Of a stretch of DNA of 64,000 bases, positions 38,570 to 61,100 are shown piece after piece (the first letter of the stretch is position 1; every line of letters begins with the position of its first letter). Location of the stretch: positions 1 through 64,000 of the forward strand of contig JAOUPR010000003.1 of the NCBI GenBank assembly GCA_029879725.1, in the 5' to 3' direction. Both the position numbers and the translations under genes were made by a program. A model generated the notes under the pieces. That model was not told where the DNA came from, did not search any database, and was given only the letters and a program-made list of their open reading frames with translations. This stretch comes from Gemmatimonadota bacterium (GTDB lineage: Bacteria; Gemmatimonadota; Gemmatimonadetes; Longimicrobiales; Gaopeijiaceae).

Positions 38570-39115
38570 TCACACCTGCCGATTGATGAGGACACCGCTT
38601 CCGCCGGCCATGTCCTGGGTACCGTTGTTCACCTGCCCCCGACCGTACGTCTGCCCGGCCCGCGGGGTCGCGCCCACCAGGGCCCGGATGAGCTGATCAC
38701 CTGCCGTGATGGCCCCCTGGAGCACCCGACGATTCAGGTCCAGCTCCCGCGCCAGCGTCTGCGCCGCTTCGTGGAGCTCGTCCCTCGCCCTGCGCACCGA
38801 CTCGGTCATCCCCATCCCGAGGGCGGTGTCCAGCTCGGCGAGAGGCAACTCCTCGTTCCCCACCATCAGGTGGAGCAGGCTCTTTCTCCTTCGCTTCGCC
38901 TGCGCCAGCGTCAACAGGATCCGTTGCGCGGCGTAGACCGAATCGTCCACGGATCCCAGGTCGTCCTGGCCCACCGCGGTGCGCTGACGCTCCAGCACCC
39001 GCTCGAGCTCGCGGAGGAGGCGGGTCTCCGACCCGAACGCCTCCGCGAGGGTCTCCACCCGGCCCGAAACCGCCGTGGGCACTCCCAGGGGAAGAGGCGT
39101 GGACTGCACCGTCAC
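38570..39115 (-). CDS. flgN: FlgN-family export chaperone
   Basis: This 181-residue helical protein starts at a GTG overlapping the flgJ stop (GTGA). It has an FlgN-like heptad pattern (LLRELERVLERQRTAVGQDDL, AAQRILLTLAQAKRRRKSLL) and a C-terminal long helix ending near QLIRALVG. FlgN chaperones FlgK and FlgL, and it lies directly before flgK here. The tail from residue 145 is probably disordered. Confidence 0.85.
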   Translation of the reverse strand: MTVQSTPLPLGVPTAVSGRVETLAEAFGSETRLLRELERVLERQRTAVGQDDLGSVDDSVYAAQRILLTLAQAKRRRKSLLHLMVGNEELPLAELDTALGMGMTESVRRARDELHEAAQTLARELDLNRRVLQGAITAGDQLIRALVGATPRAGQTYGRGQVNNGTQDMAGGSGVLINRQV

Positions 39116-39483
39116 ACCTCCCCTGAACCGGAAGTATCGGCACCGGGCATCGCCGGGACGACCTGAGCGGCCTCCGCCAGGCCCATGTTCCGGGCGAAGT
39201 GGCGGTACAACGCCGAGCCGATCCCCCGCTCGCTCTGCTGCGCGGCCGCGTCGGCGATGTGCTGGTCCATGAGGCTCTGGAACATGTCCTCTCCGGCCCC
39301 GCCGGAAAGGGCACCTCCTTCGGGAACGGTCTCTCGCATGGCCTTGAAGATCTCCTGGTAGAAGGTCCCTTCCATGAGGTCGGCGGCGGCACGGAGCCGA
39401 GCCTCCTTCCCCTGGATGCGCCCGTTCTTCAGTGCCTCGAAGGCATCGATTCGGCCCATGGGACCCGTTCCGTCCACGCTCAT
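39112..39483 (-). CDS. flgJ: Rod-binding protein FlgJ, N-terminal domain only
   Basis: This 123-residue protein matches only the rod-scaffolding half of FlgJ (AADLMEGTFYQEIFKAMRETVP, ...GEDMFQSLMDQHIADAAAQQSERGIGSALYRHF). It has no glucosaminidase or other murein-degrading domain, so rod penetration of the wall needs another hydrolase. Single-domain FlgJ is common outside enterics. It overlaps flgI and flgN by four bases each. Confidence 0.93.
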   Translation of the reverse strand: MSVDGTGPMGRIDAFEALKNGRIQGKEARLRAAADLMEGTFYQEIFKAMRETVPEGGALSGGAGEDMFQSLMDQHIADAAAQQSERGIGSALYRHFARNMGLAEAAQVVPAMPGADTSGSGEV

Positions 39484-51077: not shown

Positions 51078-51346
51078 CAGTGGATCAGCGCCGGGAGTGA
51101 GCGGAACAACTCCGTCGTGTACTGCATGAGATGCTGCAGCATCCACGAGAGGAGGAACAGGAACACCGCGCCCACGGCGAAGAGCTTGGGGACGAAGGAG
51201 AGCGTCTGCTCCTGAATGGAGGTCACGGCTTGCAGGATGCTCACCAGGAGACCCACCACCAACGCCACCGCGAGCAACGGACCCGCGAGGAGCAGCGACT
51301 GCAACAGTGCGTTGCGCGCGAGGTCCAGGACCAGGGCGATGGGCAT
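51077..51346 (-). CDS. fliQ: Flagellar export gate protein FliQ
   Basis: This 89-residue protein has two membrane helices (ALLQSLLLAGPLLAVALVVGLLVSIL and FAVGAVFLFLLSWMLQHLM) with the family linker QAVTSIQEQTLSFVPK. Length and layout are typical. It overlaps fliP and fliR by one base each (TGATG). Confidence 0.97.
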   Translation of the reverse strand: MPIALVLDLARNALLQSLLLAGPLLAVALVVGLLVSILQAVTSIQEQTLSFVPKLFAVGAVFLFLLSWMLQHLMQYTTELFRSLPALIH

Positions 51347-52527
51347 CAGAAGCTCTGCACCAGGCTACCCATCACCAGCGACCACCCGTCCACGAGCACG
51401 AAGAGGAGGAGCTTGAAGGGGAGCGACACCATCACGGGGGGAAGCATGAACATCCCCATGCTCATGAGCACCGACGCCACCACGAGGTCGATGACCACGA
51501 AGGGGAGGAAGACGGCGAACCCCATCTGGAACGCGCTGGTGAGTTCGGACGTCACGAAGGCCGAAGCCACGGTCACCATGGGGATGTCCTCGACCGTCTC
51601 GGGCGCGGGCCCCTGCTGCATCTGCACGAAGGCCACCAGATCCTGCTCGCGGGTGGCCTCCAGCATGAAGTTCCTGAAGGGAACGGCGGCCGCGCGTAGC
51701 ATGTCCCCCTCGTTCATCTCGCCCGCCACCCACGGCGCCAACGCCGTCTCGTTCACCTCCTGCATGGTAGGCGCCATCACGAACCCGGTGAGGAGGAGCG
51801 CCATGGCGGCCAGCAGGTGGGCGGGAGGCGCGGTCTGCGTCCCCAGCGCCTGCTTGAGCAGATGAAGAACGATGAGGATCCTGGTGAACGACGTCATCAG
51901 GAGGAGGAGCGTGGGGAGGAGCGTCAGGAACCCGATGAAGATCACCGTGCCCACGGGACCGCTGATCTCGAGCGGGTTCTGATCCTCGTCACCCAGGGTG
52001 AGGTTCATCCCGGGAAGTTCGTCCAACACGCGGGGGACGGTGGGCTGCCGGGGTTCGGCCACGGTGGGCTGATCCGGCTGCCGCGCACCCTGCTGTTGCG
52101 CCCCGAGCGGCGCGGCCCCGAACGGTAGTGCCACCAACGCCGGCACGAGGAGCATCAGGCTGCGCAGCCCCGCGACCTTCCGGCCCGCACGCTCGAGGAG
52201 GAGCGGGAAGCTGCGTCCGTCCACGGACGTGGCTTCGGGCGCGGCGGAGGCGTCGTCTTCGGCTGCCTTCCCCGCCTCGTCGAGGTCCACGTCCAGGAGG
52301 TATCGGACTCCGCCGTCTCCGTACGAGACCAGCGCCGTCCTGCCTCCCACGCGCACCGTCGCCAACCCCTGGCGCGGCGCCAATCCCACTCGGGACAGGA
52401 CCTCGATGCGGGTGTGTTGGTTCGAGCCCCCACTCCGCGGGGCCACCCGGCGGGCCACCTGGGCCAGAATGACCACCAGTCCGAGAACGAAGGCCAGCGC
52501 TGCGAACACACCGAGAGCTGCGGGCAT
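51346..52527 (-). CDS. fliP: Fused FliO-FliP flagellar export protein
   Basis: This 393-residue protein combines two usually separate proteins. Residues 1-115 match FliO: one membrane helix (3-26) and the IEVLSRVGLAPRQGLATVRVGG domain. Residues 122-145 are a signal-like hydrophobic helix (the N-terminus of normal FliP), followed by a proline-rich linker and the FliP gate core from about 185: FLTLLPTLLLLMTSFTRILIVLHLLKQALG, AMALLLTGFVMAP and MGMFMLPPVMVSLPFKLLLFVLVDGW. FliO assists FliP assembly, so a fusion is plausible. No stop or frameshift separates the parts. Confidence 0.9.
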   Translation of the reverse strand: MPAALGVFAALAFVLGLVVILAQVARRVAPRSGGSNQHTRIEVLSRVGLAPRQGLATVRVGGRTALVSYGDGGVRYLLDVDLDEAGKAAEDDASAAPEATSVDGRSFPLLLERAGRKVAGLRSLMLLVPALVALPFGAAPLGAQQQGARQPDQPTVAEPRQPTVPRVLDELPGMNLTLGDEDQNPLEISGPVGTVIFIGFLTLLPTLLLLMTSFTRILIVLHLLKQALGTQTAPPAHLLAAMALLLTGFVMAPTMQEVNETALAPWVAGEMNEGDMLRAAAVPFRNFMLEATREQDLVAFVQMQQGPAPETVEDIPMVTVASAFVTSELTSAFQMGFAVFLPFVVIDLVVASVLMSMGMFMLPPVMVSLPFKLLLFVLVDGWSLVMGSLVQSF

Positions 52528-54816: not shown

Positions 54817-56064
54817 TCAGCGCTTCAGGGATACCACTTCCTGAAGCATCTCGTCGGACGTGGTGATGACCCGAGCGTTGCTCTGGAAGCCCCGCTGTGC
54901 GGTGATCATCTGAGTGAACTCCTGGGCCAGGTCCACGTTGGACATCTCCAGGGCGCCCGAGGTGATGGTCGACTGGCTTCCCTCCCCCGGGTACCCGAGG
55001 ATGGGCGACCCGGAATTCGAAGACACCTGGTACATGTTGTCTCCGCTCCGGATCAGACCCGCCGGGTTGTTGAAGTCCGCCAGCACGAGCTGCGCCAGCG
55101 TGAGCGTCACGCCGTTGGTGAAGGAGCCCGTCACGGTACCGGTCTGGTCGATGGAGAAGCGCTCCAGGTCACCCATGGTGTACCCGTCCTGCTCCTTCAA
55201 AACGGCCGTGGACGGCGCCGCGAACTGGGAGAGCCCCGCGATGGATCCGCTGGCTCCGAAGTCCATGGCCACCGTGGTATCCACCGACCCGTTGGTGGGC
55301 GTGAACACGAAGGGCGTGACCGGAATCGGATCGGTGAGCCGCCCCTGGTTGTCGAAGGTCAGCGTCCCCAGATCTCCGGACACCACCGTCCCCCCGGTGA
55401 CCGAGGCCTGATAGTCCCAGGTGGTCCCCGACGTCTTGGTGAAGGTGAGGGTCATCTCGTGCGTGTCGCCGATGGCGTCGAACACGGTGATGGTGGTCTC
55501 GCGCGTCGACCCGATGGGATCCGCCCCGTCCAGGTTCCCCGCCAGGGCGACCTCGGTGGTGGCTCGCGCGGCTGACTTCTGCCCGAAGGGGAGCTGGATG
55601 TCCTGGATGGCATCGCTGAGGATCCCGTCCGTGGCGATCCGGCCCTGAACCACGAAGCCGTTGGTGGACGCCACCAGCCGGCCGTTGGCATCGAGCTGGA
55701 AGTTGCCCGAACGGGTGAAGAAGTTCTGGGTCCCGTCGGACGCAACGAAGAAGGCCTCGCCCTGGATGGCCAGGTCGGTGCCCACACCCGTGGACTCCAG
55801 GTTCCCCTGGGTGAAGAGCAGATCGATGGACCCGATGTTCATCCCCAGGCCCACCTGGATCGGGTTCACGCCTCCGGACACGTCACCGGAGTCTCCCGGC
55901 GGACGGCTGGCGCCCTGGAGGAGCTGCGCGAAGCCCTCCTCGAACGTGACCCGGCTGGCTTTGTAGGCCGTCGTGTTCACGTTGGCGATGTTGTTTCCGA
56001 TCACGTCCATCTTGATCTGATGGTTCCGGAGGCCGGACACGCCGGCGAAGAGTGAACGCATCAT
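54817..56064 (-). CDS. flgE: Flagellar hook protein FlgE
   Basis: This 415-residue hook protein has the N-terminal LFAGVSGLRNHQIKMDVIGNNIANVNTTAYKASRVTFEE and C-terminal NVDLAQEFTQMITAQRGFQSNARVITTSDEMLQEVVSLK rod-hook motifs, with a FlgE D1/D2 middle. The start could be either of two adjacent ATG codons (56064 or 56061). It follows flgD by 15 bases and ends the operon that begins with fliF, off the right edge. Confidence 0.97.
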   Translation of the reverse strand: MMRSLFAGVSGLRNHQIKMDVIGNNIANVNTTAYKASRVTFEEGFAQLLQGASRPPGDSGDVSGGVNPIQVGLGMNIGSIDLLFTQGNLESTGVGTDLAIQGEAFFVASDGTQNFFTRSGNFQLDANGRLVASTNGFVVQGRIATDGILSDAIQDIQLPFGQKSAARATTEVALAGNLDGADPIGSTRETTITVFDAIGDTHEMTLTFTKTSGTTWDYQASVTGGTVVSGDLGTLTFDNQGRLTDPIPVTPFVFTPTNGSVDTTVAMDFGASGSIAGLSQFAAPSTAVLKEQDGYTMGDLERFSIDQTGTVTGSFTNGVTLTLAQLVLADFNNPAGLIRSGDNMYQVSSNSGSPILGYPGEGSQSTITSGALEMSNVDLAQEFTQMITAQRGFQSNARVITTSDEMLQEVVSLKR

Positions 56065-56079
56065 GGTGTGTGATACTCC

Positions 56080-56769
56080 TTACAGTGTGTTGGATGGATC
56101 CTGCTGCACGATGATTTCGACGACATCCGCAAGCGGGATCTCCAGATCCCCTGAGAACAGCACCGGTCCCTGGGGACCGTATCGCAACCCGTCGACCCGG
56201 GTGCGAGTGAAGGTCTGGACCTGAACGGGCTCCCCCGACAGGTCGTTCACATGGAGCTCGTAGCGATACCGGCCGGGGGCCAACCCGTCCGTCGCGGATC
56301 CGAGCTCGATCTCCTGGCGGCCACCGTCGACGGGGCCGACCTGACGAGATCCGACCTTCTCTCCGTTGGCGTCGTAGATGTCCAGGGTGGCCACGCCCCC
56401 CTGTCCCGCCACGCCCACCGTCACGGATTCTCCGGCCGCACCCGTGACGTCGACGGTATCGCCGATCACGAGCACGGACTTTCCCAACACGCCCACCGCC
56501 GCGGTGTTGTTCAACGCGGTGGCCATGAGTGTATTCGTTTCCGTCTGCGCCTGGATGTTCTCATTCACGTTGATGAGCTGCTCCAGACTGGAGAACTGCG
56601 CCAGCTGAGCCGCGAACTCCTCGGGATTGCTCGGGTTGAGCGGATCCTGATGGCGGAGCTGGGCCACCAGGAGTTGGAGGAATTCCTCCTTTCCGAGATG
56701 CCCCGGCGCCCTCGCGTCCGTCGCCTGGATGGGCTGCCCGTAGGTAGCCGCCATGTCCGTGTAGATCAC
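56080..56769 (-). CDS. flgD: Hook assembly scaffold FlgD
   Basis: This 229-residue hook cap has the conserved N-terminal EFLQLLVAQLRHQDPLNPSNPEEFAAQLAQFSSLEQL, then a Tudor/Ig-like pair of domains (DIYDANGEKV, APGRYRYELHVND). It is needed for hook polymerisation. The start overlaps the fliK stop (ATGA). Length is typical. Confidence 0.96.
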   Translation of the reverse strand: MIYTDMAATYGQPIQATDARAPGHLGKEEFLQLLVAQLRHQDPLNPSNPEEFAAQLAQFSSLEQLINVNENIQAQTETNTLMATALNNTAAVGVLGKSVLVIGDTVDVTGAAGESVTVGVAGQGGVATLDIYDANGEKVGSRQVGPVDGGRQEIELGSATDGLAPGRYRYELHVNDLSGEPVQVQTFTRTRVDGLRYGPQGPVLFSGDLEIPLADVVEIIVQQDPSNTL

Positions 56770-58733
56770 CGATTCCTCCTCTGCTGATCCCTGCGGGACT
56801 GCTGAAATTCACCGTCTGCGCCGTACCGGGGATTCCGGCCCTGGCGGGAGGACGGGTCCCCCGTGCCTTCTCGATTCCCACTCGTGGGGTCCCCACCCGA
56901 CAGGAGGGCGCGCATCACTTCCGCGGCCCGGTCGGAGCGACTCCCCATGAATCCACCGGTGTCCGCCTCCGAGCCGGCGGCGACGCCGTTCACCGCGATC
57001 CTTCCGGCGTCGAAGCCACGGGACTCCAGGGTCCGCTGCAGCTCGTCGACGCGGGCACGGAGCTCACGGGCCTGCACCGGGTCGGCCATGTCCACCTCGG
57101 CCCCCACGAGCCGGTTGGTCAGATCCACGCGGACCTGTTCCGCCGACCCGGCGGTTCCGTCCAGACGGATGGCCACCCGGTTGGGCGCGATCCCCTTCAG
57201 GAGTTCCCGGGCTTCCATGATCTGGTCGACGCGGGTGAGGGGGTCGGGGCCGGCGACTTCCCGGACCGCATCGGCCCGCAGGGAGCCCATGTCCCCGGCG
57301 CGGGCGAGAAGCTCCGCTGCCGCGGCACGCATCTCCACCGTGCTGCGCCGGGCGGAAGACGCATCGGCCAGGTCGGCCGCTTGCACCGCCTCCTCACCGG
57401 ATGGCGACCGCCGGTCCCTCCCCGATCCGTTGGGCGACCCATCACTCCTCCCGGACGTGCCGGCGAGGGTGGGTGGGGCGTGCAGAGGTGTCCCCGGCGA
57501 GGAGCCACCATCGGTGCTCGCCACCGCGGAGCCCGCGAAATGGAGATCCTCGGGACCCCGTACGGACACGACCGGCGGCGCCGAACGTCGGGGAGTGACC
57601 TCCGCGACGGCCGGTGCCGGTGAGCCGGAAGCCGCCAACGAAGGCATGCTGCCGGGTCTCGGCACCCGGGAAACCCGGGCCGTGGTGGCCACGTCCGCCA
57701 CCTCCGCCACCCGAGCCACGCGGACCCGGCGATCTTCGGCAACCGGAAGCGCCTCTTCGGCGGACGGCAACTCCACATGACCCGGATCCATGGCGCCCAG
57801 AGTGTGGAGTCCCTCCTCGCGGGCGACCTTTTGCAGCCGTTCGTACGCCTTCCGATTCCCCCACGAGCCGTCCACCATCAGGTCGGCGGCCGCGCCATCC
57901 TTGTGGAGGGAATCGAGGGTCCACGTCACCACGGGTCCGGTGCGGGTGCGACCCTGCCCGTAGAGATACCGCTGCCGGGCCGCGCTACGCGCACCCTCCA
58001 CCAACTCCACGCGATGTCCGTGCTCCGACGCCATGCGGTCGATGACCCGCTCCAGACGGACCTGGAGGTCCGGGTCCAGTCGGTCCCAATCGCGGTCGAC
58101 CCGCTCCACGGACGCGAGTTCGGCGGCTCGGGCACCTTCGGACCCATCGACCTCGCCGACGACCATCTCCGCTTCGATCGTCTCACCCTCGAGGCTCGCC
58201 GAGTCTGCCCGGGCGACCGTGCCGGCCGGGAGGGTCACCACCTCGGAAGCAGCATCGGCGGCCCCCTCGACGGGTATGTCCCGGGACTCGGCCGCACGCG
58301 TGAGGCCACGGATGCCCGGACGGAGGTCGCTCCCTCCGATCCCGGAAACGTCCACCGGTCCGCGCGCGCCCTCGGGAAGCGAGGCGGTGCTCAACACCGA
58401 CTGCGTCCACCCTGCGGGAAGCGTGCGGAACTCCCCACCGACGGCCAGGTCCGGCGCCGCGACGTCCGGCTCGACGTCCGGCTCGATGTCCGCCGCGACG
58501 TCCGCCGCGAGGGCTCCCTCCGGAGGCGGGACCGTTCCGGATCCACCGAAGACGCCACCTCGATTTCCGGCCGGGATGGGGGCACCCCCATTTCCCAGGA
58601 TCGAAAGAATCAGGTTGGCGAACTCGGGGGATTCCACGGGAGCCGTCTTCGCGGCGCCCGCCTGGGACGTGGGGTGCGCCAACCCACCCGTCGGGGCCCC
58701 CAGGATGAGGGGGAACAGGGACACGATCATCAC
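56766..58733 (-). CDS. fliK: Hook-length control protein FliK with an embedded M15-type metallopeptidase domain
   Basis: This 655-residue protein is placed between the motE-like gene and flgD. Its residues about 500-585 match the FliK C-domain (LLKGIAPNRVAIRLDG...VRVDLTNRL...LQRTLESRGFDAGRIAVNGV), which signals to FlhB. Residues about 218-325 look like a peptidase of the M15 (VanY/L-Ala-D-Glu endopeptidase) type: SLHKDGAAAD fits S-x-H-x-x-G-x-A-x-D (H277, D284), followed by a D316-P-G-H319-x-E321 site, with GRTRTGPVVT before it. The rest is Pro/Ala/Gly/Arg-rich linker. Normal FliK has no such domain. The hydrolase activity is inferred from motif completeness. Confidence 0.88.
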   Translation of the reverse strand: MMIVSLFPLILGAPTGGLAHPTSQAGAAKTAPVESPEFANLILSILGNGGAPIPAGNRGGVFGGSGTVPPPEGALAADVAADIEPDVEPDVAAPDLAVGGEFRTLPAGWTQSVLSTASLPEGARGPVDVSGIGGSDLRPGIRGLTRAAESRDIPVEGAADAASEVVTLPAGTVARADSASLEGETIEAEMVVGEVDGSEGARAAELASVERVDRDWDRLDPDLQVRLERVIDRMASEHGHRVELVEGARSAARQRYLYGQGRTRTGPVVTWTLDSLHKDGAAADLMVDGSWGNRKAYERLQKVAREEGLHTLGAMDPGHVELPSAEEALPVAEDRRVRVARVAEVADVATTARVSRVPRPGSMPSLAASGSPAPAVAEVTPRRSAPPVVSVRGPEDLHFAGSAVASTDGGSSPGTPLHAPPTLAGTSGRSDGSPNGSGRDRRSPSGEEAVQAADLADASSARRSTVEMRAAAAELLARAGDMGSLRADAVREVAGPDPLTRVDQIMEARELLKGIAPNRVAIRLDGTAGSAEQVRVDLTNRLVGAEVDMADPVQARELRARVDELQRTLESRGFDAGRIAVNGVAAGSEADTGGFMGSRSDRAAEVMRALLSGGDPTSGNREGTGDPSSRQGRNPRYGADGEFQQSRRDQQRRNR

Positions 58734-59311
58734 CTACCTCCACGACCTGTGAGAAGCACCCGGCTCAGGGCCGCGGCGCGGTCCGAGTCGAAGGTGCCGA
58801 GTATCTGGGCGGCCTGTCGCTCGCTGAGTTGCAGTAGAACGGCCGACACCTCGGCATCGCTCATTTCCGCCAGGACGTCCGACGCGTCGGCGGGCTTCAT
58901 GGCGGCGAAGATCTTCGCGAGTCTCCGGGTGCCTTCCGCGTTCATCGCCGGCGCCGCTTCTTCCGCGGGCGCCTCCGGTTCGGTTCCTTCGGCGACCTGC
59001 ACGCCCTCGTCGGCACCGACGCTCTCCGCGCCCGCCGACAGCGTGTCGGACACCTCGACCTCCGCGTGTCCACCATCAGCCACTCCGTCGGCGACGGGCT
59101 CTTCCTGGCCCAGGGGGAGCTGGACGGCCCCGTGGTCGTCTCCGGCGGCCATGGCGGCGATCTCCATCTCCGCCTCGGCGGCGGCGAGCGAGTCCGCCAC
59201 CATCTTCTCTCTGGCGGCGACGATCTCGTCCTTCAGGCGCATCCCCTGGATGGCGCCACCGGCTCCTGCGCCGATGGCCAAACCCACCACGAGGGCAAGG
59301 AACATCTTCAT
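58730..59311 (-). CDS. MotE-like flagellar chaperone
   Basis: This 193-residue protein has an N-terminal membrane helix, a coiled-coil or acidic linker and a C-terminal MgtE-N-like domain (RLAKIFAAMKPADASDVLAEMSDAEVSAVLLQLSERQAAQILGTF), as in MotE/YlxF proteins that guide MotC or FliK-related functions. It lies between fliJ and fliK with ATGA overlaps on both sides. Its exact role is not established here. Confidence 0.82.
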   Translation of the reverse strand: MKMFLALVVGLAIGAGAGGAIQGMRLKDEIVAAREKMVADSLAAAEAEMEIAAMAAGDDHGAVQLPLGQEEPVADGVADGGHAEVEVSDTLSAGAESVGADEGVQVAEGTEPEAPAEEAAPAMNAEGTRRLAKIFAAMKPADASDVLAEMSDAEVSAVLLQLSERQAAQILGTFDSDRAAALSRVLLTGRGGR

Positions 59312-59778
59312 GCTTCGTTGTCTCCCTTGGATCCCGTGCCGCTCCGTCCATGGCGGGTCAGAGCGACTTCATCCATGGTCTTCTGTTCCAACCGCGTTTG
59401 TTCACCGTGCCACTGCTGGAGGCGCCTCTCACGGAGCTGGCCGATGGCGCGCCGCTCCTGTACGGCCTCGTGATATCCCTTCATGGACTCCACGACCTGC
59501 TCGTCGGCCTTCCGGCACTCGCCGTCCGCGGCGCTGATCCGTGCGTCCACCTGGCCCACCACGTAGGCCAGGTTCTGGAGGTGCCCCACCGCGCCACCGA
59601 GTCCATGGGCGGTGGCCAGGCGCTCGCGCCCGGCCGCCCTCGCCGCCTCGAGATCCTCCCGCGCCGTGCGGGCGGCATCGGCGTCCATCCGGGCCCGTGC
59701 CAGTCCGCGCGCCCTCTCGTTCTCCCGCTCCTCCCGGAGTTCGAGGACCTTCTGGAGGGAAAACCGGAACGCAGCCAT
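59308..59778 (-). CDS. fliJ: Flagellar export protein FliJ
   Basis: This 156-residue coiled-coil protein begins FRFSLQKVLELREERENERARGLARARMDADAA, typical of FliJ, and remains helical to QLRERRLQQWHGEQTRLEQKTMDEVAL. It links FliI and FlhA at the export gate. It starts at a TGATG overlap with fliI and overlaps the next gene by ATGA. The assignment is supported by position between fliI and the motE-like gene. Confidence 0.92.
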   Translation of the reverse strand: MAAFRFSLQKVLELREERENERARGLARARMDADAARTAREDLEAARAAGRERLATAHGLGGAVGHLQNLAYVVGQVDARISAADGECRKADEQVVESMKGYHEAVQERRAIGQLRERRLQQWHGEQTRLEQKTMDEVALTRHGRSGTGSKGDNEA

Positions 59779-61100
59779 CAGCGGGTACCTCCGTGAGCGG
59801 CTTCGGCCAGCGCCAGGAGATGGTCCCGGGTCTCGCCGAAATCCGCGGCATGGTCCGGGCTCTGGCGAAGGAAGTCGTTGATGGCCGGACGGAGCGCGAC
59901 GGCCGCGTCCACCACCGGGTCACTCCCTTTCTGGTAGGCACCCACGGAGATCAGGTCCTCCTTCTCCCGGTGGGCGGCCACCAGCGACGTGAGGCCGTTG
60001 GCCGCGTCGCGATGGTCCCGTGATACGATGTGGTCCCGGACCCGGCTGGCGCTCTCCGTGACCTCGATGGCCGGAAAATGGCTGGCCGAAGCGAGGCGCC
60101 GGCTGAGGACGACGTGGCCATCCAGCACCGAACGCACGTGGTCCGCCACCGGTTCGTTGAAGTCGTCGCCCTCCACGAGCACCGTGTAGATCCCGGTGAT
60201 CCCACCCTCGGCACCGTTCCCCGCACGCTCGAGGAGCCTGGGAAGGGCCGCGAACACCGAGGGTGGATATCCCTTGGTCGTGGGGGGCTCACCCACGGCG
60301 AGCCCGATCTCACGCCACGCCATGGCCACCCGGGTGACCGAGTCCACCATGAGAAGCACCTGCTTTCCCTGATCGCGGAAGTACTCCGCGATGGCCGTGG
60401 CCACCAGGGCGCCCCGGGTACGCACCAGAGCCGACTGGTCTCCCGTGGCCACCACCAGGACGGATCGCTCCATCCCTTCGGCACCCAGGGAATTCTGGAT
60501 GAAGTCCCGGACTTCCCTGCCGCGCTCACCCAACAGGGCGATCACGTTCACGTCCGCCTGGGCGTGCCGGGCGATCATCCCCAGGAGCGTGCTCTTCCCG
60601 ACGCCGCTCCCCGCGAAGATCCCGATGCGCTGCCCGCGGCCTACGGTGAGCACACCGTCGATGGCCCGCACTCCCGTGGCCATGGGCTCGTCTATGGGCA
60701 TGCGATCGAGGGGGTTCGGCGGATCCGCGGACAACGGAACCCTCACGGTCGCGCCCAGGTCGCCGAGGCCGTCCATGGGCTGACCCAGGCCGTCCAGCGT
60801 GCGCCCCAGGAGGCCGGGACCGACGGCGACGCCGAAGGATCTCCCCATGGGCTCCACCGCGCTTCCCGGATGGATCCCCTCGACCTCACCCAGGGGCATG
60901 AGAAGGACTCCGCCTTCGTGGAATCCCACCACCTCGGCCATGACGCGCGTGTCGTGGGTCAGGCTCCGCACACGGCAGAGTTCCCCCATGGCCACGTCGA
61001 GTCCCACCGCCTCGATCACCAGGCCCACCACGCGGGTGGCCCTTCCGTACTGGGCGAAGCGGGGAGTCTCCTCCACGGATTCCAGGAGCGCCTCAAGCAT
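59778..61100 (-). CDS. fliI: Flagellum-specific ATPase FliI
   Basis: This 440-residue ATPase has P-loop GSGVGKST (K169), Walker B VLLMVDSVTRVAMAWREIGLAVGEPPTTKGYPPSVFA and the conserved GLGQPMDGLG and GKSTLLGMIARHA segments. It energises export substrate unfolding. It overlaps fliH by 8 bases and fliJ by 1 base. The N-terminal FliH-binding helix region is short. Confidence 0.97.
   Translation of the reverse strand: MLEALLESVEETPRFAQYGRATRVVGLVIEAVGLDVAMGELCRVRSLTHDTRVMAEVVGFHEGGVLLMPLGEVEGIHPGSAVEPMGRSFGVAVGPGLLGRTLDGLGQPMDGLGDLGATVRVPLSADPPNPLDRMPIDEPMATGVRAIDGVLTVGRGQRIGIFAGSGVGKSTLLGMIARHAQADVNVIALLGERGREVRDFIQNSLGAEGMERSVLVVATGDQSALVRTRGALVATAIAEYFRDQGKQVLLMVDSVTRVAMAWREIGLAVGEPPTTKGYPPSVFAALPRLLERAGNGAEGGITGIYTVLVEGDDFNEPVADHVRSVLDGHVVLSRRLASASHFPAIEVTESASRVRDHIVSRDHRDAANGLTSLVAAHREKEDLISVGAYQKGSDPVVDAAVALRPAINDFLRQSPDHAADFGETRDHLLALAEAAHGGTR

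Follow-up and report, generated by a model that had tools for sequence, protein, structure and literature searches.

How does the flagellar rod cross the peptidoglycan in bacteria whose FlgJ carries no hydrolase, and can the hook-length ruler FliK take over this task? The question is raised by a gene in the 64,000-nucleotide stretch of Gemmatimonadota DNA analysed here (hereafter the window), whose product had been read, in an earlier note made on the letters alone, as a FliK with an embedded M15-type peptidoglycan peptidase domain. Rod passage through the wall differs among bacteria, being served by a hydrolase fused to FlgJ or by a separate transglycosylase, and the identity of this domain, its distribution and its likely role are considered in turn.

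A FliK gene with an additional domain

The frame of the gene is open throughout; its GTG start overlaps the stop of a motE-like gene, and its stop overlaps the start of flgD (Table 1). The operon order in homologous loci is FliF-G-H-I-J-MotE-FliK-FlgD-FlgE, and the succession motE-like, fliK-M15, flgD is found both there and in the window, in agreement with the place between motE-like and flgD that had been claimed for the gene. Elsewhere in the window, FliO and FliP domains lie in one ORF (51346-52527), a FliO-FliP fusion, and loci of the family here called f4 have ORFs of similar length.

From the N to the C terminus, sequence and model together indicate a low-complexity region, the M15 domain followed by a (VAx)n array and a linker, and, at the end, the C-terminal switching domain of FliK. 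This last domain, which the earlier note had placed at residues 500-585, was recovered at nearly the same residues: PF02120 (Flg_hook) was not matched by the window protein alone and was matched by 53 of 59 homologous C-terminal domains, while the AlphaFold model, of moderate quality (pLDDT 71), gave Salmonella FliK (2rrl) and PscP (5cuk) as its first matches, both with probability 1.00. Homologue profiles, AlphaFold and Foldseek results and operon position thus bear out the proposed architecture, and on these sequence and model grounds the product is confirmed as a bifunctional FliK, with a C-terminal FliK domain and an embedded predicted M15 peptidase domain.

Table 1. Coordinates of the features discussed, in the window unless a locus is named.
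Feature	Coordinates	Strand	Description	Evidence
fliK-M15 fusion gene	56766..58733	-	655 aa, GTG start	ORF, operon position, homologues
M15 peptidase domain	57759..58103	-	residues ~211-325	phrog_6523, PDB profile, AlphaFold, Foldseek
Zinc motif 1, S275-x-H277-x-x-G-x-A-x-D284	57882..57911	-		invariant columns
Zinc/catalytic motif 2, D316-P-G-H319-V-E321	57771..57788	-		D316, G318, H319 invariant in 65 domains; E321 nearly so
(Val-Ala-x)4 array	57684..57719	-	residues 339-350, close behind the M15 domain
FliK C-terminal (substrate-switching) domain	56964..57227	-	residues ~503-590	PF02120 in homologues; structure match
flgD, hook cap	56080..56769	-	directly downstream of fliK-M15, overlapping start	PF03963, E 6e-21
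flgE-type hook gene	54817..56064	-		ORF; kept beside flgD in homologous loci
motE-like gene	58730..59311	-	directly upstream of fliK-M15	MgtE_N, E 2e-6; conserved position
fliJ + fliI	59308..61100	-	upstream, same operon as fliK-M15	ORFs, conserved order
flgJ, rod-binding only	39112..39483	-	tail of 24 aa after the match	PF10135, E 2e-13, residues 47-94 of 123
f11 FlgJ with C-terminal SLT domain	L258:9335-10225, L259:7535-8410

Identity of the M15 domain

Both halves of the expected metal site are present at the residues proposed for them, as S275-L-H277-K-D-G-A-A-A-D284 and D316-P-G-H319-V-E321. The two motifs, SxHxxGxAxD and DxxHxE, are intact together in 63 of 64 loci, and H277, D284, D316 and H319 are invariant across 65 M15 domains. 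Comparison with M15 profile models gave a divided answer. Alone against Pfam, the window protein matched no M15 model, and PF13539 had no match in the window's own genome, whereas the endolysin family phrog_6523 matches the domain (E 3e-14) and part of the homologous domains do match Pfam (VanY 36/65, Peptidase_M15_3 28/65, best 4e-6). Since the window sequence alone missed both the M15 models and Flg_hook, homologue profiles and models were used instead. Against the PDB, the single window sequence matched 2vo9 (E 7e-5) and 6akv (E 5e-4), and the profile matched 6akv, LysB4 (E 2e-13), and 2vo9, Ply500 (E 4e-13).

A structural match, the lack of which the earlier note had named as a possible refutation, was also obtained: the AlphaFold model of the domain has a confident M15 fold (pLDDT 92.6), and its top Foldseek match is Ply500 (2vo9; E 1.3e-7, probability 1.00, TM 0.73), to which H277 and D284 align directly. 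Both histidines and D284 are presumably the counterparts of the zinc ligands of Ply500, and D316 that of its catalytic acid. By fold and motifs, the domain is of the phage L-Ala-D-Glu endopeptidase-like M15 zinc peptidase type, with a predicted activity.

Distribution of the fusion

Scanning 84,980 species by pattern gave 64 loci in which the domain is full-length; one more locus (L089) is frame-split. The fusion loci share the flagellar operon order, except at contig ends and where genes were missed by the comparison; 10 homologues in related genomes and the 64 database loci (genomes partly shared) carry this domain at the corresponding place in the operon. Every fusion locus is labelled Gemmatimonadota or bears a vague or different MAG label. 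On the FlgE tree, L089 (named Planctomycetota) and L092 (Kuenenia) group within the clade of Gemmatimonadota; these contigs are probably misnamed MAGs with Gemmatimonadota flagellar genes.

Two sets of matches were rejected as fusions. Weak M15 matches in f3 genomes (L011-L018) belong to a separate family, with ORFs of ~320-450 aa, no FliK domain and relatives without a FlgD match; those outside Gemmatimonadota (L133-L147) have neither nearby flagellar genes nor a FliK domain. A FliK domain was also sought in 80 viral M15 loci and found in none, so no phage among them carries the fusion.

In a survey of 395 genomes of the phylum, 101 with and 294 without FlgD, a strong M15-FliK match (E at most 1e-45) was found in 82 of the 101 and in 3 of the 294; of these three, G041 has a gene that continues up to the contig end, and two have their match at most 0.8 kb from the contig start. 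M15-FliK and FlgD stand 0.8-1.9 kb apart on one contig in 78 of 83 pairs (G093 counted). The genomes with FlgD and no M15 comprise eight of family f4, six of the outgroup class f11 and four at contig edges (G019, G206, G273, G360), these last not scorable for the fusion. Outside f4 and f11, the fusion is therefore present in 82 of 83 assessable flagellated genomes, the remaining one having a decayed copy. The distribution is wider than first noted: within Gemmatimonadota the fusion extends across a class, is a fixed trait of most flagellated Gemmatimonadetes and strictly accompanies flagellar genes. One genome, G021, has two FliK-M15 genes (L007, L020), along with a second set of flagellar genes on another contig, and is possibly a mixed MAG (6% contamination).

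One change suffices for the fusion on the FlgE tree, where f4 is sister to the fusion clade, and on this tree the fusion would have arisen once.

Constraint on the domain and the (Val-Ala-x)n array

Among close pairs, the median dN/dS is 0.125 for M15, 0.375 for the N-terminal region, 0.40 for the linker and 0.30 for the FliK C-terminal domain. M15 is the part of FliK under the strongest purifying selection, which, together with the invariant residues, argues for an active enzyme and not for a relic or a spacer.

A further feature, which the earlier note had not mentioned, is a run of Val-Ala-x triplets. At least three consecutive triplets are found in the linker of 55 of 58 full-length FliK-M15 proteins (shuffles give 0.9 proteins), typically 20-40 residues past the M15 domain and with a mean longest run of 17 aa. 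None of 14 FliK proteins or fragments from f4, f11, G093 and G206, which are plain, decayed or partial, has the array. Its codons vary, so the array is not a DNA repeat; a four-repeat DNA pattern has its sole matches in fliK in G000, G035, G054, G075, G092 and G145, and further matches outside fliK in some larger genomes.

FlgJ and wall hydrolases

The window protein is not a bifunctional rod protein of the FlgJ type, its rod-binding counterpart being a separate gene (39112-39483) without a hydrolase domain, as had been claimed. The same holds for all examined fusion carriers, in which FlgJ is rod-binding only and ends 4-50 aa past the rod-binding match. In f11, FlgJ runs 179-188 aa past this match (five genomes measured); both f11 FlgJ proteins scanned have a C-terminal SLT transglycosylase domain, and the SLT match coincides with the rod-binding frame in 6/6 genomes. 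Class f11 thus has the reverse arrangement, FlgJ-SLT with a plain FliK, in keeping with the task of opening the wall having been transferred. Its hook-protein ORFs (L244, L245, L248, L249) are ~1,035 aa long, roughly twice the size in other families.

Family f4 combines a rod-binding-only FlgJ with a plain FliK and has neither hydrolase-FlgJ nor M15-FliK, so that wall opening there must fall to a different enzyme. Beside motAB, f4 has HD-domain and histidine-kinase-type ATPase genes (L256:10430-12342, L257:5711-7696). The decayed copy is that of G093 (L250:4833-6551), where the M15 motif is lost, the FliK frame is open, the VAx array is missing and the flagellar genes are kept; G135, of the same genus, has a strong M15 match. 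As for a second FlgJ-type hydrolase, which the earlier note regarded as a possible objection, GH73 had no match in 80 flagellated genomes; unlinked SLT transglycosylases do exist in 79 of these 80, with three matches in the window's own genome, on contigs other than that of the flagellar cluster. Taken together, f4, G093 and the unlinked SLT genes indicate that other enzymes can suffice for wall opening.

Proposed role and competing explanations

The reading we favour, and hold to be rather probable on sequence and model evidence, is that the exported FliK-M15 peptidase opens the wall for the rod, standing in for the hydrolase domain of FlgJ, and that the same protein times the hook switch. 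FliK is among the substrates that the flagellar export gate takes early, and would exit through the rod as this grows; for as long as the rod tip lies in the periplasm, the exported protein would fold there, bind zinc and cut stem peptides around the tip, probably at L-Ala-D-Glu, letting rod and P-ring pass the sacculus. Once the outer membrane is crossed, FliK-M15 would be delivered outside, and for this reason wall cutting at the site would shut off, while the C-terminal domain would still time the hook-to-filament switch. A precedent for the periplasmic route is a FliK-Bla fusion of Salmonella, which leaves via the flagellar gate into the periplasm in early rod assembly, as seen by ampicillin resistance (PMC13344023). 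In the same system, periplasmic export declines once the PL-ring is assembled (PMC13344023). Against the favoured reading, export at the hook stage would send a large share of the enzyme out of the cell, and the plain FliK of f4, the decayed M15 of G093 and the SLT genes of nearly all flagellated genomes also count against it.

These last observations lend themselves to another explanation, in which the rod-binding-only FlgJ recruits a lytic transglycosylase encoded elsewhere to make the hole, in the manner of SltF in Rhodobacter or BB0259 in Borrelia, and an active M15 only helps, for instance by trimming cross-links for the P-ring or around the hook. It accounts for the ubiquity of SLT genes, for the survival of f4 and G093 without an intact M15-FliK and for the pairing, elsewhere, of single-domain FlgJ with separate SLT enzymes (PMC8517470), but the SLT matches of the window's own genome sit away from the flagellar cluster, and the strict retention and strong constraint of M15 suggest more than a minor helper; we regard it as rather unlikely. 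An improbable explanation is that M15 is non-enzymatic, a folded bead which sets ruler length, senses peptidoglycan or slows FliK export, and so feeds the switch. Its position within the ruler region, the control of the Salmonella switch by FliK export speed (PMC13344023) and the non-enzymatic action of which M15-fold proteins are capable, with hedgehog proteins among the fold matches, would suit a bead, which would however not need zinc and catalytic residues that are the same in all 65 domains.

It is very improbable that the enzyme, released with FliK into the medium during hook growth, acts outside the cell, for example on neighbours or on the cell's own surface. FliK secretion does go on after outer-membrane passage (PMC13344023), and the fold family is that of endolysins. 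Nevertheless, outer membranes shield Gram-negative neighbours, and the adjacent flagellar genes leave no room for an extra candidate immunity gene between them. The amount of protein would also be small, since each flagellum exports few FliK molecules. Finally, a chance motif or prophage remnant within fliK, which could be suspected from the failure of the window sequence alone to match Pfam M15 models, is refuted by the homologues and has a negligible probability, given 64 further loci with the same position in one clade, the low dN/dS of the domain and its confident fold.

On the favoured reading of FliK-M15 as the wall-opening enzyme, we lean slightly towards a history in which Gemmatimonadetes took this enzyme away from FlgJ, the rod cap, and placed it on FliK, the secreted ruler, the sacculus being cut before the hook is timed, with the (VAx)n array, seen only beside an intact M15, as second element of the device. 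Such a shift from FlgJ-SLT to FliK-M15 within one phylum, with an intermediate family having neither, is suggested by the distribution. FlgJ-SLT loss may have preceded FliK-M15 gain; a gain of SLT in f11 is equally possible.

Comparison with known systems

FliK-M15 is a variation on the known idea of flagellar export substrates that bear hydrolases. As in FlgJ with a C-terminal hydrolase (GH73 in Salmonella, SLT in f11), an export substrate carries a peptidoglycan hydrolase, here a predicted one, that would serve rod passage; FliK takes the place of FlgJ as carrier, the domain is internal and of the M15 peptidase type instead of a glycosidase, and the organism's own FlgJ has no enzyme domain. 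SltF of Rhodobacter sphaeroides and BB0259 of Borrelia are non-FlgJ proteins that cut the wall where FlgJ is rod-binding only, as is proposed for FliK-M15; those are stand-alone transglycosylases, whereas here the predicted enzyme is fused to the ruler. The closest solved relatives, Ply500 (2vo9) and LysB4 (6akv), share the fold and both motifs and are stand-alone lysis enzymes, in contrast to this conserved bacterial domain between FliK regions. The C-terminal switching domain is shared with FliK (Flg_hook, PF02120; 2rrl) and with the injectisome ruler PscP (5cuk), and the operon place by flgD with FliK. The sources searched yielded neither a FliK nor a PscP that bears an enzyme domain, and open-licence PMC full text no description of a FliK with an M15, peptidase or hydrolase domain; the earlier note, too, knew of none.

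FliK-M15 may be how these bacteria open the wall for the flagellum. It appears as a third solution, a predicted peptidase inside the length ruler, shared by most members of one class that have flagella, and would let a single exported molecule both open the wall and control length. In Salmonella FliK-Bla, an enzyme is borne into the periplasm by FliK in rod assembly (PMC13344023); there it is a laboratory beta-lactamase construct, here a natural, internal predicted peptidase, and FliK-M15 is in this sense the natural counterpart of laboratory FliK-enzyme fusions.
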